Below, piece by piece: positions 41,553 to 47,088 of a stretch of DNA of 64,000 nt; the stretch's first letter is position 1; each line of letters begins with the position of its first letter. Source of the stretch: an uncultured Desulfobacterales bacterium (lineage in GTDB: Bacteria; Desulfobacterota; Desulfobacteria; Desulfobacterales; SpSt-501); contig CALIUY010000007.1 of the NCBI GenBank assembly GCA_938048455.1, positions 1-64,000 on the forward strand, in the 5' to 3' direction. Position numbers and translations under genes: made by a program. The notes under the pieces were generated by a model that was not told the DNA's origin, did not search any database, and was given only the letters and a program-made list of their open reading frames with translations.

Positions 41553-42065
41553 ATGAGCGTGCGCCGCACGGCCGGCTTCACCATCGTCGAGATGATCGTG
41601 GTGCTGCTGCTCATGACGCTCCTTGCCGCCACCGTGCTCGGCCGCGCGGTGACGACCGCGGAGATCGACCTTTCTTCCGCCGCGGACAAGGTGCGAAACC
41701 AGATCCGCTACGCCCAGGCCATGGCGATGAAGACCGCCCACCCGGGCGCCCCGGTCTGGGGGGTGAAATTCTCAGGCGCCGAGTACTGGGTCTTTCGCGG
41801 CCTCAACCCCGATCTCGCCGCCAACGAGCGCCGCGTGCCCGGCGGGGATTACCCCGCCGCCGGGAACCGGATCCGCGAAGAGGATCTCAAGGCCGAGATC
41901 CTGGAAAACGCGGTCGTCTTCTTCGACCGCATCGGGCGGCCCTACACGGCCTACAGCGATGAGACGACCAACACACCCCTTGCCGCGCAACTGCTGCTCA
42001 CCCTGCGCTCCGGGTCCGAAATCCGGACGGTCAGCATCGAGCCTGAGACGGGGCTCGTGCGCTGA
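41553..42065 (+). CDS. GspH/FimT-like pseudopilin
   Basis: A 170-residue prepilin-like protein. The leader MSVRRTAG ends in Gly, followed by FTIVEMIVVLLLMTLLAATV with Glu at +5, the signature processed by prepilin peptidase. The globular part (KVRNQIRYAQAMAMKTAHPG, then APVWGVKFSGAEYWVFRG) matches GspH/FimT minor pilins. It sits in the inner membrane and can join a pseudopilus tip. The upstream start at 41469 would add 28 unlikely residues. First gene of a four-gene operon. Confidence 0.9.
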   Translation: MSVRRTAGFTIVEMIVVLLLMTLLAATVLGRAVTTAEIDLSSAADKVRNQIRYAQAMAMKTAHPGAPVWGVKFSGAEYWVFRGLNPDLAANERRVPGGDYPAAGNRIREEDLKAEILENAVVFFDRIGRPYTAYSDETTNTPLAAQLLLTLRSGSEIRTVSIEPETGLVR

Positions 42066-42072
42066 GGACGAA

Positions 42073-42519
42073 ATGCGGCTTGCTGCCTCCCGCGCCGGGT
42101 TCACGCTGATCGAGGTGATCGTCACCATCGTCGCCGCGGCGATCGTCGGGGTGATTTTCATCCAGTTCATGGGGACGGCGATGAGCCGAAGCGTCCGGCC
42201 GCTCGAGATCGTCCGCGGCGAGGCGGAGGCCGAGCGCTTGCTCGAGCGGATCACGGCGGACTACGTCTTTGAGGTGAACCGCGACCCGGCGGGGGCTCTG
42301 CTCACGCTCAAGGGCCAGATCGACCCGCCCACGCGCAAATACGGGGAGACGGTCTCCGCGGACTACATCCAGTTCAACGCCGGCGGAAACGAGGTCCCCT
42401 TCGCCGGCCCGGCCGCCGAAGCGCGAACGCTCAAGGTCACGGTGAACGCCGCGGGAAACGATCTCGTCGCCCTCTTCACCCGCAGCCGCACGGCGAACTC
42501 GCCGCCGGTCGCCTTCTGA
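42073..42519 (+). CDS. Pseudopilin / minor pilin (GspI- or PilV-like)
   Basis: 148 residues. MRLAASRAG precedes FTLIEVIVTIVAAAIVGVIF, again with Glu at +5. The head is beta-rich with ERITADYVFEVNRDPAGALL and QIDPPTRKYGETVSADYIQF. It has no more specific match by eye. Seven bases after the previous stop and two before the next ATG, so it is clearly co-transcribed. It probably packs with the other minor pilins. Confidence 0.87.
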   Translation: MRLAASRAGFTLIEVIVTIVAAAIVGVIFIQFMGTAMSRSVRPLEIVRGEAEAERLLERITADYVFEVNRDPAGALLTLKGQIDPPTRKYGETVSADYIQFNAGGNEVPFAGPAAEARTLKVTVNAAGNDLVALFTRSRTANSPPVAF

Positions 42520-42521
42520 CG

Positions 42522-43037
42522 ATGGAACGGAAATCCGGCAAGGGCTTCATTCTGATCGAGCTCGTCACCACCCTGATCCTGATCGGGGTGATCGGCGCTT
42601 TCGCGGGGCTGTTCCTCTACAGCGGGGTGAACGGCTATATCGCCTCGCGGCGCAACTCCGAAGCCGCGCTCAAGGCCCAGATCGCCCTCGACCGCATCAG
42701 CGCCGAGCTGCGCGCGCTCAAGCCGAGCCCCGCCCCCACGTTTGCGCCCCGGCGGATCACCTACCAAAACGATCTCGGCACGGGAAACCGGACGCTCGAG
42801 ATCGAAAACGGCCCCCAGGGTCCCGGAATCTATCTCACCGTCGGGGGAGGGAAATTCCTGTTGCTGGATAACGTCCCGGTCGAGACCGCGCAGATCGCCT
42901 ACACGGCAACCCGCGATCTCGACAACGAAAACAACGACAACGAGGTCGAATCGATCCGCGTCTCCTTCCGCATGGCGGGGCTCGAGAGCCCCTTCGCGGT
43001 GGAGATCTACCCGCGCGCCCTGATCAACGCCCCATGA
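42522..43037 (+). CDS. Pseudopilin / minor pilin (GspJ- or PilW-like)
   Basis: 171 residues. The leader MERKSGKG is followed by FILIELVTTLILIGVIGAFA with Glu at +5. The head has SRRNSEAALKAQIALDRISA and a Asp/Asn-rich loop (RDLDNENNDNEVESIRVSF) that might bind calcium, as in some GspJ/PilW-like tips. The stop overlaps the next ATG (ATGA), which couples it to the large surface protein. Confidence 0.88.
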   Translation: MERKSGKGFILIELVTTLILIGVIGAFAGLFLYSGVNGYIASRRNSEAALKAQIALDRISAELRALKPSPAPTFAPRRITYQNDLGTGNRTLEIENGPQGPGIYLTVGGGKFLLLDNVPVETAQIAYTATRDLDNENNDNEVESIRVSFRMAGLESPFAVEIYPRALINAP

Positions 43038-46000
43038 AAGAAGACCGCATGCCCCCTACCCGGCGCCCCTGGGCTCAAGCCCTCGGATGGTTCCTCCGGC
43101 CCCTGTTCTCCCGCCGGGGGAACCTCCTCGCCTACGTCGTTCTCGTGATGGTGATCTTCGGCCTGCTCGGGGCGCTCATGGTCTCGTTGTTCAGCACCTC
43201 GCTTGCCGGCTCGGCCGAGGCGAACGCCCGGCGTCGTGCGGTCTACCTCTCCGAGTCCGGGCTGCGCTACGGCATGAGCGAGCTGCGCAACACCGGTTTT
43301 TCCAGCGCGGCGATCAACCGTCTGAACACGACCACCCACCGCCTCTCTCCTGCCGGGGAATTCCGGGTCAACGCCTTCAGCCCCTGGTTCGAGTCGGCGA
43401 CCAACCAATCGATCGAGCCATCCGGCCCGGTGCGGCTGAATGTCGCCAAGGGACGGGTGCCCGAGGGCTTCCTGGGACGGATCCCCGTCACCGCCCCGCT
43501 TCTGCGGCTCGTCAATTTCGACTTCATCAACCTCGGCGGAACGGGCATCCCGGAGACGGCGAAGACCGCGATTGTGGGGGCGTCGCTTATCGACGACAAC
43601 ACACTCGATTTTCAGGCAACCGACGATTTCATCGTCGGCAAGGGCGAGACGATCTGCTTCTCGGTACACCCTTTCGCCGCCGGCCAGACGCTCATGACCC
43701 TGGGAAACTTCGACCTGCAACCGGTCGCCAAAAACATTTTCCCTCTGCGGGACGGAGCCTTCCGCTTCCGGAATTGCGACTTTTACTACCGCTCCGCCGA
43801 AGACCTGGGCGACCGCTTCCGGCTGTACAGCTTAAGCTCGACGCAGATCCCGTGTATCGGGATCCCCTTCACGAACATCCCGGCGGATGAGGAGATCATC
43901 TTCTCGCCGCGGAACTATCTTCTCACCTCACGCGGGATCTCCGGCGAGGTGAGCTACGGCGGCGATCTCGACCATGCGATCGGCGTCACCAGCCACGCGG
44001 GTCTTTCCCCGAACGAGCGCGGCGCGGACATCGCCTTCGAGGAGGAGACCGATCTGGCAAGCGTGCTGCGGCAGGTCAAGCGCTCGGAAAGCGACCGTTT
44101 CGTCACCGTGGATAACGAGCAGAAGGCGATCATCCTGGGCGGCGAATCGGGCCCCGCACTGGGCGGCGTCTTCTTCCGCGACACGCGGAACATCGGGGGC
44201 GTGCGCGAGTACTGCAACGCCCAGGGATGTTTCTTCAACCGCGGGATCCGCGTCTTCTTCACCCTGCAGTACAGCGGGACGGGCGACGGCCTGATCTTCG
44301 CGCTCGTCAACGGCAACCCCGACAAGAACGATACGGCCTCGATCGGGGGCGACATCGAGCGCAGCGAGCTCTTGGGCTTTGCCGGCGACAGCCGCCTCGA
44401 CCCGGCGGGGACGATCTTCCTCGACAACTCCGGTCCTGCGCGGGGGCTTCTGCCGCCGAAGATCGGGCTCGAGTTCGACACCCGGGTCAACTACAGCGCG
44501 GCGCTGGAGCAGAGTCTGCGCTACTGCGAAGGGTCGAGCCTGAACGCCGATACGCGAAACGACCCCGGCGCCGGCGACCGGGACGCCGTCCAGTATGTAT
44601 TCTGGGGCAACAGCTCCTTGAACATCCCCTGCCGCCGGGAACCCTACTGCGGCGGAGCAAGCTCCTGCCGCGGGGACCCCTCCTACGACGACAACCGTCA
44701 CAACGCGACCGGGGACGACACCCCGAACTGGGACTATCGCACGAGCGGAACCCTCGAGTCCTCTCCCGCGGTCGCCGCCGACGGGACGATCTACTTCGGC
44801 TCCGGGGACGGCCACCTCTACGCCTTGAGCCCGAACGGGACCTTGCGCTGGCGTTTCGCTACCGGCGGCCGGGTTTACTCCCCCGCCGTAGGGGGCGGCG
44901 GCACCGTCTATGTCGGCTCAGAGGACGGAAATCTCTATGCCATCCACCCGGATGGCTACGAAACCTGGCGCTACGCGACAGGGGGCGCGGTCAGGACCCG
45001 TCCGGCGATCTCGCCCGTGGGAAACCTCTATTTCGGATCCGATGACGGCTGGTTCTATGCCCTCACTTCCGGGGGCTCGCTGCTGTGGCGGTACAACGAC
45101 GGCTCCCCGATCCGCTCCTCAGCCGCGTTTTCGCCATCCGGCGGGACGGTCTATTTCGGCTCCGATTCCGGCGTCTTCTATGCTTTCACCGCCGCAAGCG
45201 GAACACTGGTCGGCCTTACGGTGCCGACCCCCGTCAACGCCTTCGTCTCCTCCCCCGCCGTGGGCCCGGACGGCCGGGTCTATGTCGGAAACGACAACGG
45301 CCGCATCTACGCCTTCAACAGCGCGGCAAGCGGTGTCGTCTGGTCCGTGGCCACCGGAGAGGCGGTGCGATCGAGCCCCGCGGTGAGTGCCGACGGATCG
45401 GTTTACGCCGGCTCCATGAACGACCGCCTTTATGCGATCGACGCCGCCACCGGTGCGGTGCGCTGGACCTATCAGGCCGGCGGGAACATCCAATCGCCGA
45501 TCGCGACCGATGCCGACAACCACATCTATTTCGGCTCCGACGACAAGCGCGTTTACGCGCTCTACGCCGACGGCAGCGTCAAATGGACCTTCGAGACCGA
45601 CGGGGACGTGCGGGGAAAACCCCTCGTTCTTGCCGACGGGACGGTCTACGCCGCATCCTTCGACTTCCGCCTGTATGCCATCAACCAGTTCGCCAACCCC
45701 AAAAACTACCGCGACCGCCTGATCACCTACGACAGCGGCCGGGTGGGAGGAGTCCCCGCGGTCGTGGACGACCCGAACGAGTGGCTGAAAGGCGCCTCCT
45801 CGCGCGGCCCGTGGGCGGTTCGCATGGAGATCACGCGCAACCGTTTTGCAAGCGGCGGGACCTACGCCTACAGCTTGAAAACCTGGCTCCGCCAGTGCAC
45901 CACCGCGGCCTGCAGCGGCGAAAACGAGCCGCTCTCCAGCTTCTTCGCCGACACCCGCGTCAACTATTCGCCCGCGACACGGCCTGCACAGCTCGAGCAG

Positions 46001-46168
46001 ACCATTCATCTTCTTCCCGCCGATCATGCGGATTTCGAACGCGTCATCTTCGGTTTCACCTCTCAGACCGGGCCGGCCGATCTCCAGACGGCGACCATCC
46101 GCAATTTCCGGCTCAGCTTCATCCGTCCCGAAGACCCCACGGTTTCGAGCGATCCCACCTGGCCTTGA
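43034..46168 (+). CDS. PilX-like anchor fused to lectin-like domain and PQQ-type beta-propeller
   Basis: A 1044-residue surface protein. Residues about 28-60 (LLAYVVLVMVIFGLLGALMV, then ARRRAVYLSESGLRYGMSEL) match the N-terminus of PilX/GspK-type minor pilins. Residues about 385-560 resemble the first half of a legume-like lectin (FFTLQYSGTGDGLIFALVNG, PPKIGLEFDTRVNYSAALEQ, DAVQYVFWGN). Residues about 565-885 hold eight YxGSxDGxxYA repeats of a PQQ-type propeller. From about 890 the lectin fold resumes (PWAVRMEITR, ERVIFGFTSQTG, IRNFRLSFI). Its role is probably an adhesin or sensor at a pseudopilus tip, comparable with PilX plus PilY1. Confidence 0.85.
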   Translation: MKEDRMPPTRRPWAQALGWFLRPLFSRRGNLLAYVVLVMVIFGLLGALMVSLFSTSLAGSAEANARRRAVYLSESGLRYGMSELRNTGFSSAAINRLNTTTHRLSPAGEFRVNAFSPWFESATNQSIEPSGPVRLNVAKGRVPEGFLGRIPVTAPLLRLVNFDFINLGGTGIPETAKTAIVGASLIDDNTLDFQATDDFIVGKGETICFSVHPFAAGQTLMTLGNFDLQPVAKNIFPLRDGAFRFRNCDFYYRSAEDLGDRFRLYSLSSTQIPCIGIPFTNIPADEEIIFSPRNYLLTSRGISGEVSYGGDLDHAIGVTSHAGLSPNERGADIAFEEETDLASVLRQVKRSESDRFVTVDNEQKAIILGGESGPALGGVFFRDTRNIGGVREYCNAQGCFFNRGIRVFFTLQYSGTGDGLIFALVNGNPDKNDTASIGGDIERSELLGFAGDSRLDPAGTIFLDNSGPARGLLPPKIGLEFDTRVNYSAALEQSLRYCEGSSLNADTRNDPGAGDRDAVQYVFWGNSSLNIPCRREPYCGGASSCRGDPSYDDNRHNATGDDTPNWDYRTSGTLESSPAVAADGTIYFGSGDGHLYALSPNGTLRWRFATGGRVYSPAVGGGGTVYVGSEDGNLYAIHPDGYETWRYATGGAVRTRPAISPVGNLYFGSDDGWFYALTSGGSLLWRYNDGSPIRSSAAFSPSGGTVYFGSDSGVFYAFTAASGTLVGLTVPTPVNAFVSSPAVGPDGRVYVGNDNGRIYAFNSAASGVVWSVATGEAVRSSPAVSADGSVYAGSMNDRLYAIDAATGAVRWTYQAGGNIQSPIATDADNHIYFGSDDKRVYALYADGSVKWTFETDGDVRGKPLVLADGTVYAASFDFRLYAINQFANPKNYRDRLITYDSGRVGGVPAVVDDPNEWLKGASSRGPWAVRMEITRNRFASGGTYAYSLKTWLRQCTTAACSGENEPLSSFFADTRVNYSPATRPAQLEQTIHLLPADHADFERVIFGFTSQTGPADLQTATIRNFRLSFIRPEDPTVSSDPTWP

Positions 46169-46276
46169 ACGGGCGGCTGATTTCCAAAAAGCGCGGAAGC
46201 CCGATTGCCGCCTGGGAATGAAAACTCCCATTTTGAGGCAAAATATTTCTTATCTATACGAAATTGCTGTTTTTTC

Positions 46277-46306
46277 TTGACAGCCTAAAATCAGGGAGAG
46301 TAATTT
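46277..46306 (+). promoter_or_regulatory. Candidate promoter of PEP-CTERM gene at 46405
   Basis: TTGACA, 18 bases, TAATTT in an AT-rich gap. The leader to the ATG is about 90 bases. No sigma-54 pattern is seen here, unlike for the gene at 5459. Confidence 0.5.
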
Positions 46307-46404
46307 CGGGTGAACTCGACCGTTCTCTTCTTGTGTCTCTGATGCGGCGTCGTTCTTCTCGGCGGGGGAAATATCGGCCGAAAAGATCCTTGGGGGAGGT
46401 GGTG

Positions 46405-47088
46405 ATGAAAAAGGAAAAGTTTTTATCCCGGACGCTGGTTTTGCTGGTTTTCCTGTTTTTATTCACCCCTCGCCTCGAGGCGGTCCCCATCGAACTGAAT
46501 TTCCTGTACTCCGGCGCCACGCCGGGGGACACCGCACCTTGGCTTACCGCCGATGTGAGCGACCGGTCGGGGGGCGGCGTACTTTTGCTTCTCGATGCGC
46601 GGAACCTCACCGGCACCCAGTTCGTCGGCTCATGGTTTTTCAATTTGTACAATTTAAGCGCCAGCACCGTTGTGCTTCCCTCCTTCGAAGCCGGTTACAT
46701 TCCCCCGGCCTTGTTCGCCTTTTCCTTCAGCCCGAGCGGTGGGCTGGGTTTGGGTACAAGCCCGCTGAGCGGCTTCGAGATCGAATTCAATTTCGCGTCT
46801 TCCAACAACGGAAACGGCAACCGCTTCACCGCCGGAGAGACCCTGCGCGTGATCCTCCCGGAGGTGACCGCCAGCTCCTTCTTCCCCCCTCCGGATGCAG
46901 AGGGCTACCTCTCCGCCGCGCACATCCAGGGGATTTCTCTCGACTCGTCCGTTGATGGAAGCGCTTGGATCGCGGCCCGAAGCACGACTCCCCCCAGGCC
47001 GCAGCCCGTCCCGGAGCCAAGTACGATCCTGTTTCTGGCTCTGGGTTTGACCGTGACGGCGGGATTCCTGCGCAGAAGGGTTTCCTAA
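46405..47088 (+). CDS. PEP-CTERM sorting domain-containing exported protein
   Basis: 227 residues. The signal LVLLVFLFLFTPRLEA is followed by a beta-rich body (PIELNFLYSGATPGDTAPWL and FAFSFSPSGGLGLGTSPLSG). The end is PQPVPEPSTILFLALGLTVT, then AGFLRRRVS, a PEP-CTERM signal. It looks like a secreted structural protein anchored or released after exosortase cleavage. GGGGGAGG lies near the ATG at 46405. It follows the pseudopilin operon with a 236-base gap and its own terminator, so it is not part of it. Confidence 0.88.
   Translation: MKKEKFLSRTLVLLVFLFLFTPRLEAVPIELNFLYSGATPGDTAPWLTADVSDRSGGGVLLLLDARNLTGTQFVGSWFFNLYNLSASTVVLPSFEAGYIPPALFAFSFSPSGGLGLGTSPLSGFEIEFNFASSNNGNGNRFTAGETLRVILPEVTASSFFPPPDAEGYLSAAHIQGISLDSSVDGSAWIAARSTTPPRPQPVPEPSTILFLALGLTVTAGFLRRRVS

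Follow-up and report, generated by a model that had tools for sequence, protein, structure and literature searches.

A minor-pilin-like protein with an L-type lectin split by an eight-bladed β-propeller in an uncultured Desulfobacterales bacterium

The locus and its four-gene operon

The DNA analysed is a 64,000-nucleotide stretch from an uncultured Desulfobacterales bacterium (assembly GCA_938048455.1, contig CALIUY010000007.1, positions 1–64,000 of the forward strand), hereinafter designated the window. It contains a conserved operon of four genes, and all features of the window described below lie on the + strand. The first gene (41553..42065) encodes a GspH/FimU-like minor pilin of 170 residues with the motif GFTIVEM. 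It matches the GspH profile TIGR01708 at 3.8e-7, which is below the cutoff, and N_methyl at 2.7e-4, and it is conserved upstream in relatives. The second gene (42073..42519) encodes a GspI/PilV-like protein of 148 residues with the motif GFTLIEV, which matches N_methyl over the cutoff and TIGR02532 at 1.4e-4. The third gene (42522..43037) encodes a GspJ/PilW-like protein of 171 residues with the motif GFILIEL and a weak N_methyl match (0.0087). The positions of both genes are conserved, and both are named mainly by position. The stop codon of the third gene overlaps the start of the fourth (43034..46168), which begins with ATG and encodes the 1044-residue protein under study, hereinafter designated the split-lectin pilin. 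Just downstream of the operon lies a gene for a PEP-CTERM protein, i.e. an exosortase-sorted surface protein (46264-47088, probably with an internal ATG start), which scores over the cutoff with TIGR02595.

The split-lectin pilin begins with the end of a prepilin-like leader and an N-terminal helix (residues 27-99; 43112..43330; RRG/NLLAYVV..., without Glu at +5). The class III signal was called by eye, without a profile match. The AlphaFold2 (AF2) model of the full-length protein has a pTM of 0.41 and shows a helix at residues 31-86, with low pLDDT at the helix start; across divergent members, this helix region is the most conserved part (53%). The helix is followed by an N-terminal β domain (residues 100-320; 43331..43993; pLDDT mostly 84-90), which has no Pfam match and is absent at such size from the homologue L081 described below. 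Modular pilins are defined by a pilin N-terminus joined to a non-pilin module, with >1,200 reported and 264 architectures in the dataset of that study (PMC8179133). The split-lectin pilin has this composition, namely helix 31-86 plus a lectin plus a propeller.

As the fourth and last gene of a conserved H-I-J-K type minor-pilin operon, the gene occupies the PilX/GspK slot. Specifically, three pilin-like genes are found upstream of 11 split-lectin loci, while the motif filter picked up only one in L026 and two in L089; three such genes also precede L122 and L123. An earlier note had described the N-terminus as PilX-like. Gene position and the N-terminal helix support that description; the PilX_N profile (PF14341) has no match in the split-lectin pilin and a weak one, over the full model, in the relative L030 (E = 0.095). 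Elsewhere in the genome there are three PilY1 matches (contigs 2, 16 and 22) and two PilX_N matches, all on other contigs, indicating that the operon is likely an additional minor-pilin set and not the sole one.

H-I-J-K sets are common to pilus and type II secretion machines (PMC9934059), and the seven T2SSE-type ATPase matches in the genome fit filament motors of either machine. The split-lectin pilin could thus belong to a type II secretion-like pseudopilus as its K subunit, with a head that recruits or pushes secreted substrates and does not attach cells; the operon's first gene does score best with GspH. We regard this as unlikely, since no secretion or pilus motor gene is among the flanking open reading frames scanned, and since the binding modules that relatives carry as heads (lectins, LamG and others) fit adhesion.

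Predicted structure of the propeller and the surrounding lectin

Residues 566-884 (44729..45685) are predicted to form an inserted eight-bladed β-propeller of the BamB/PQQ type. The eight repeat core motifs lie at residues 586, 625, 665, 706, 749, 790, 831 and 871, with a spacing of 39-43 residues, and together span 586-882. Pfam matches this region with Beta-prop_ACSF4 (3.6e-87) and PQQ_2/BamB (8e-34), and the closest propeller sequences are the designed Cake/Scone/Bagel proteins, 3hxj and YxaL. The propeller is modelled with pLDDT mostly about 90. A fold search with the full-length model listed only propellers, and Foldseek overlays the model on the designed eight-blade protein Cake8 with a TM-score of 0.95 (by target length), indicating that the modelled propeller is a full eight-bladed ring. 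The eight-repeat propeller proposed earlier is therefore borne out, with boundaries almost identical to the original estimate of about 565-885.

Membership of the split-lectin pilin in the PilY1 family was ruled out, as there is no match to PF05567. The earlier note had suggested that one chain joins what PilX and the propeller protein PilY1 do as two. The PilX gene slot and the presence of a propeller at the presumed tip make the comparison attractive, but the eight-bladed BamB/PQQ-type propeller belongs to a different family, and the three PilY1 and two PilX_N matches persist in the genome. Replacement of the PilX–PilY1 pair by the split-lectin pilin is thus very improbable, and the suggestion holds at most as an analogy.

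The propeller is flanked by two halves of an L-type lectin. The N-terminal half (residues 356-562; 44099..44719) covers profile positions 1 to ~185 and carries the motifs GDGLIFAL, EFDTRVN and RNDP...D, while the C-terminal half (residues ~917-1032; 45782..46129) covers positions ~185 to 320 and carries GPWAVRMEI, FGFTSQTG and IRNFRLSFI. A family-specific DDNxH motif (residues 552-556; 44687..44701), which shows no variation among the aligned split forms and which most continuous forms retain, ends ten residues before the propeller insertion. Scanned singly against Pfam and NCBIfam, neither flank has a match. Eight full-length members (P0001, L024 and L026-L031) were aligned, and a profile of the two lectin flanks joined (A1) was run against 389 class genomes. 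In L081 (genome G285), a 547-residue pilin-like protein without a propeller, A1 matched in a single stretch at 8.7e-65. A second profile that includes L081 (A3), run against 395 genomes belonging to the phylum, adds unbroken lectins in L116, L117 (two), L118, L119, L120 and L121 (two), with E of about 1e-59 to 1e-68, as well as distant ones in L124-L126. Because a profile of joined flanks finds uninterrupted lectins in relatives, the strands that flank the propeller are lectin strands and not a chance resemblance, as the earlier note had proposed with the limits ~385-560 and 890-1040.

Measured in 12 split forms, the N-terminal half ends at positions 179-191 of the lectin model and the C-terminal half resumes at 152-207, with an insert of 316-390 residues between them. 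The end of one half approximately coincides with the restart of the other, indicating that the propeller sits in a loop and that no lectin strand is missing. The natural insert-free lectins, the unbroken profile and the fold search described below thus agree with the proposed insertion of the propeller into a loop of the lectin domain. The same architecture, for which the earlier note suggested a search, occurs in 14 of the 389 class genomes (A1 profile), including one copy with a masked stretch and one broken into two frames. The latter (L089:3519-6760, genome G125) has its break in the propeller, with the two frames overlapping, owing to either a frameshift or an assembly error.

The lectin parts of the split-lectin pilin are modelled poorly (pLDDT 27-80); we therefore folded L081, the natural uninterrupted homologue, as a proxy and rested the fold assignment on it. 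The AF2 model of L081 has a pTM of 0.67, and most of its lectin core has a pLDDT of 75-95; loop 299-337 is lower, and the loop matching the insertion site is of low confidence. All 50 of the 50 PDB matches listed in a fold search with this model are legume-type lectins or their relatives (ERGIC-53, YwfG), with E values starting at 1.6e-7. The matches have moderate TM-scores (0.43-0.66 by target length), which could be expected from long family-specific loops. The model of the homologue thus points to a legume-lectin β-sandwich, and we infer from the relatives that the two halves in the split-lectin pilin close into one domain.

Sequence comparison points in the same direction at lower scores. 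PF18483 (Lectin_L-type_dom) recognizes the L081 lectin below the curated cutoff, with E = 5.2e-7 and an alignment covering profile positions 43-207 of 215, and the joined lectin of L031 gives the best match of all (2.3e-8; 34.6 bits versus a curated cutoff of 78.3). The split-lectin pilin itself matches neither PF18483 nor PF00139, and none of the tested relatives reaches the curated Pfam lectin cutoff. A PDB sequence search with profiles A1 and A3 gave no lectin match; the only query that worked was L124, a more canonical relative, which retrieved legume lectins at 3.1e-8.

The earlier note had named two separate non-lectin domains flanking the propeller as the finding that would overturn its proposal. 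The missing Pfam matches of the single flanks and the low-confidence models of the lectin parts are what such an arrangement would look like, yet it is contradicted by the uninterrupted homologues (L081 and L116-L121) and by the fold search with L081; we give it almost no weight.

Origin of the insertion and related loci

In a maximum-likelihood tree of 27 lectins, the 12 propeller forms make up one clade with support of 100/99, so one gain explains the insertion. The unbroken L081 and two small-module forms adjoin this clade (support 89/91). Propellers are not the only domains in this part of the lectin. Specifically, a LamG-like domain precedes DDNxH in L090, L091 and L093 (PF13385 at 1.8e-4 in L091), and small repeated modules are found in the same region of L122 and L123. 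The loop region thus appears to tolerate whole domains, and the LamG domain, the small modules and the propeller may represent independent insertions. Whether the loop region of a tip lectin acts as an evolutionary docking site is, in our judgement, evenly balanced; if so, propeller, LamG and small modules were inserted independently, the tip was re-tooled while the lectin stayed unbroken, and the nested propeller would provide two coupled binding heads.

Relatives of the first 564 residues of the split-lectin pilin were found both within the genus and across several families of the order. The gene is patchy among close relatives, with no match in 3 of 7 genomes of the genus, and a search of viral contigs found no relatives. 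All regions are under purifying selection compared with the nearest relative (L026, 85% identical), with dN/dS lowest in the lectin (0.14) and the propeller (0.15) and slightly higher in the N-terminal part (0.18).

Several related loci differ in the arrangement of the head. L124:2988-4766, L125:1616-3415 and L126:2164-3951 encode class III pilins (GFTLIE) that belong to other families and carry a C-terminal L-type lectin; that of L124 is not called by Pfam, yet it is the one that matches PDB legume lectins. Two genomes (L117 and L121) have two tandem lectin pilin genes per locus, and L118:2860-4977 encodes a lectin pilin with an extra LamG domain behind the lectin (PF13385, 1.1e-28). L119:3382-5436 and L120:3296-5596 carry the same lectin without the pilin part, behind what appears by eye to be an ordinary secretion signal. 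Distant relatives with a pilin-like N-terminus (L032, L037, L039, L042 and L044) have a different β domain (YDAQVKVGF...), which in several is apparently interrupted by an InhA/MAM-like domain (PF20773 at 4.2e-6 in L042, just under the cutoff); these could represent another instance of nested pilin heads.

Putative binding site, proposed role and known systems

To map the putative sugar/metal site, L124 was aligned to pea lectin, and the positions were then carried to the split-lectin pilin via alignment A4. The DG-motif Asp, D418, aligns with a metal or sugar residue of pea lectin, as do E480, D482, N486 and D510. Five of the six site residues (Asp of DG, Glu, Asp, Asn, Asp and His) are thus kept. 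The His position is D517, at which L027 and L029 retain the usual His, and residue 484 is Arg instead of an aromatic residue. Among relatives, D418 is replaced in two and N486 in one, while E480, D482 and D510 are invariant.

The exchange of the canonical metal-binding His for Asp and the Arg at 484 could mean that the lectin fold is a scaffold that no longer binds sugar, and that the work is done by the inserted propeller, through protein binding. Propellers are common protein-binding platforms, and the insertion lies close behind the conserved DDNxH motif. The conservation pattern makes us doubt this reading: pairwise conservation across members is higher in the lectin (46%) than in the propeller (33%), and E480, D482, D510 and DDNxH are invariant.

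We favor an adhesive role, and consider that the split-lectin pilin probably is a modular minor pilin that, in the K/PilX position, caps a type IV filament with an L-type lectin head carrying an eight-bladed propeller in a loop. In published work, a bulky K subunit caps the H-I-J-K set of minor pilins at the filament tip, and the lectin pilin PilC of Streptococcus sanguinis binds glycans (PMC9934059). By analogy, after leader processing the H-, I- and J-like pilins and the split-lectin pilin would form a filament-tip complex. The lectin would close round the two propeller stems and keep the putative legume-lectin metal/sugar site, and the propeller beside this site may widen the binding surface or bind a second ligand. 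The bacterium might thereby attach to a glycan-bearing surface or a partner cell through a metal-dependent lectin.

Pilus tips determine what a bacterium adheres to. In the known examples considered, the tip heads are strung behind the pilin or supplied by PilY1, whereas the head described here was enlarged by a whole ring domain inserted inside the lectin. The insert-free lectins of relatives offer a natural before/after pair, which makes the insertion step testable, and the lectin profiles are a search tool for lectin pilins missed by Pfam. Lectin-bearing modular pilins and tip propellers were known already. The literature covered yielded no L-type lectin or pilin with a propeller nested in it, consistent with the earlier statement that no protein of this plan has been described; a prior mention of the combination as a domain string may exist among the modular pilin architectures of PMC8179133.

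One of the closest known systems is PilC of S. sanguinis, likewise a minor pilin that bears a lectin-superfamily head, which has been modelled at the tip of the filament (PMC9934059). PilC has a ConA-like module after an Ig-like module and no reported propeller, whereas the split-lectin pilin occupies the K/PilX slot and has an L-type lectin with a propeller inserted into one of its loops. PilC/PilY1 tip adhesins (PF05567) place a β-propeller at a filament tip with four minor pilins, as proposed here; however, PilY1 is a separate non-pilin protein with a propeller of another family, and its model is not matched. GspK and PilX are similarly the last of a four-gene minor-pilin set and have the N-terminal helix, and GspK is also large with an extra domain, but neither is known to contain a lectin or a propeller, both of which are present here. 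L-type lectins (PF18483 and PF00139; pea lectin and the bacterial YwfG) share the fold, as seen via L081, and the motif order DG.TF...VEFD.Y.N...DP..H; the split-lectin pilin differs in the extra DDNxH, the long loops, the propeller insertion and the Asp in place of His at one metal position. BamB/PQQ_2 propellers, YxaL and the designed Cake8 have the same repeat type and eight blades, but they are free-standing, whereas the propeller described here is nested in a pilin lectin.
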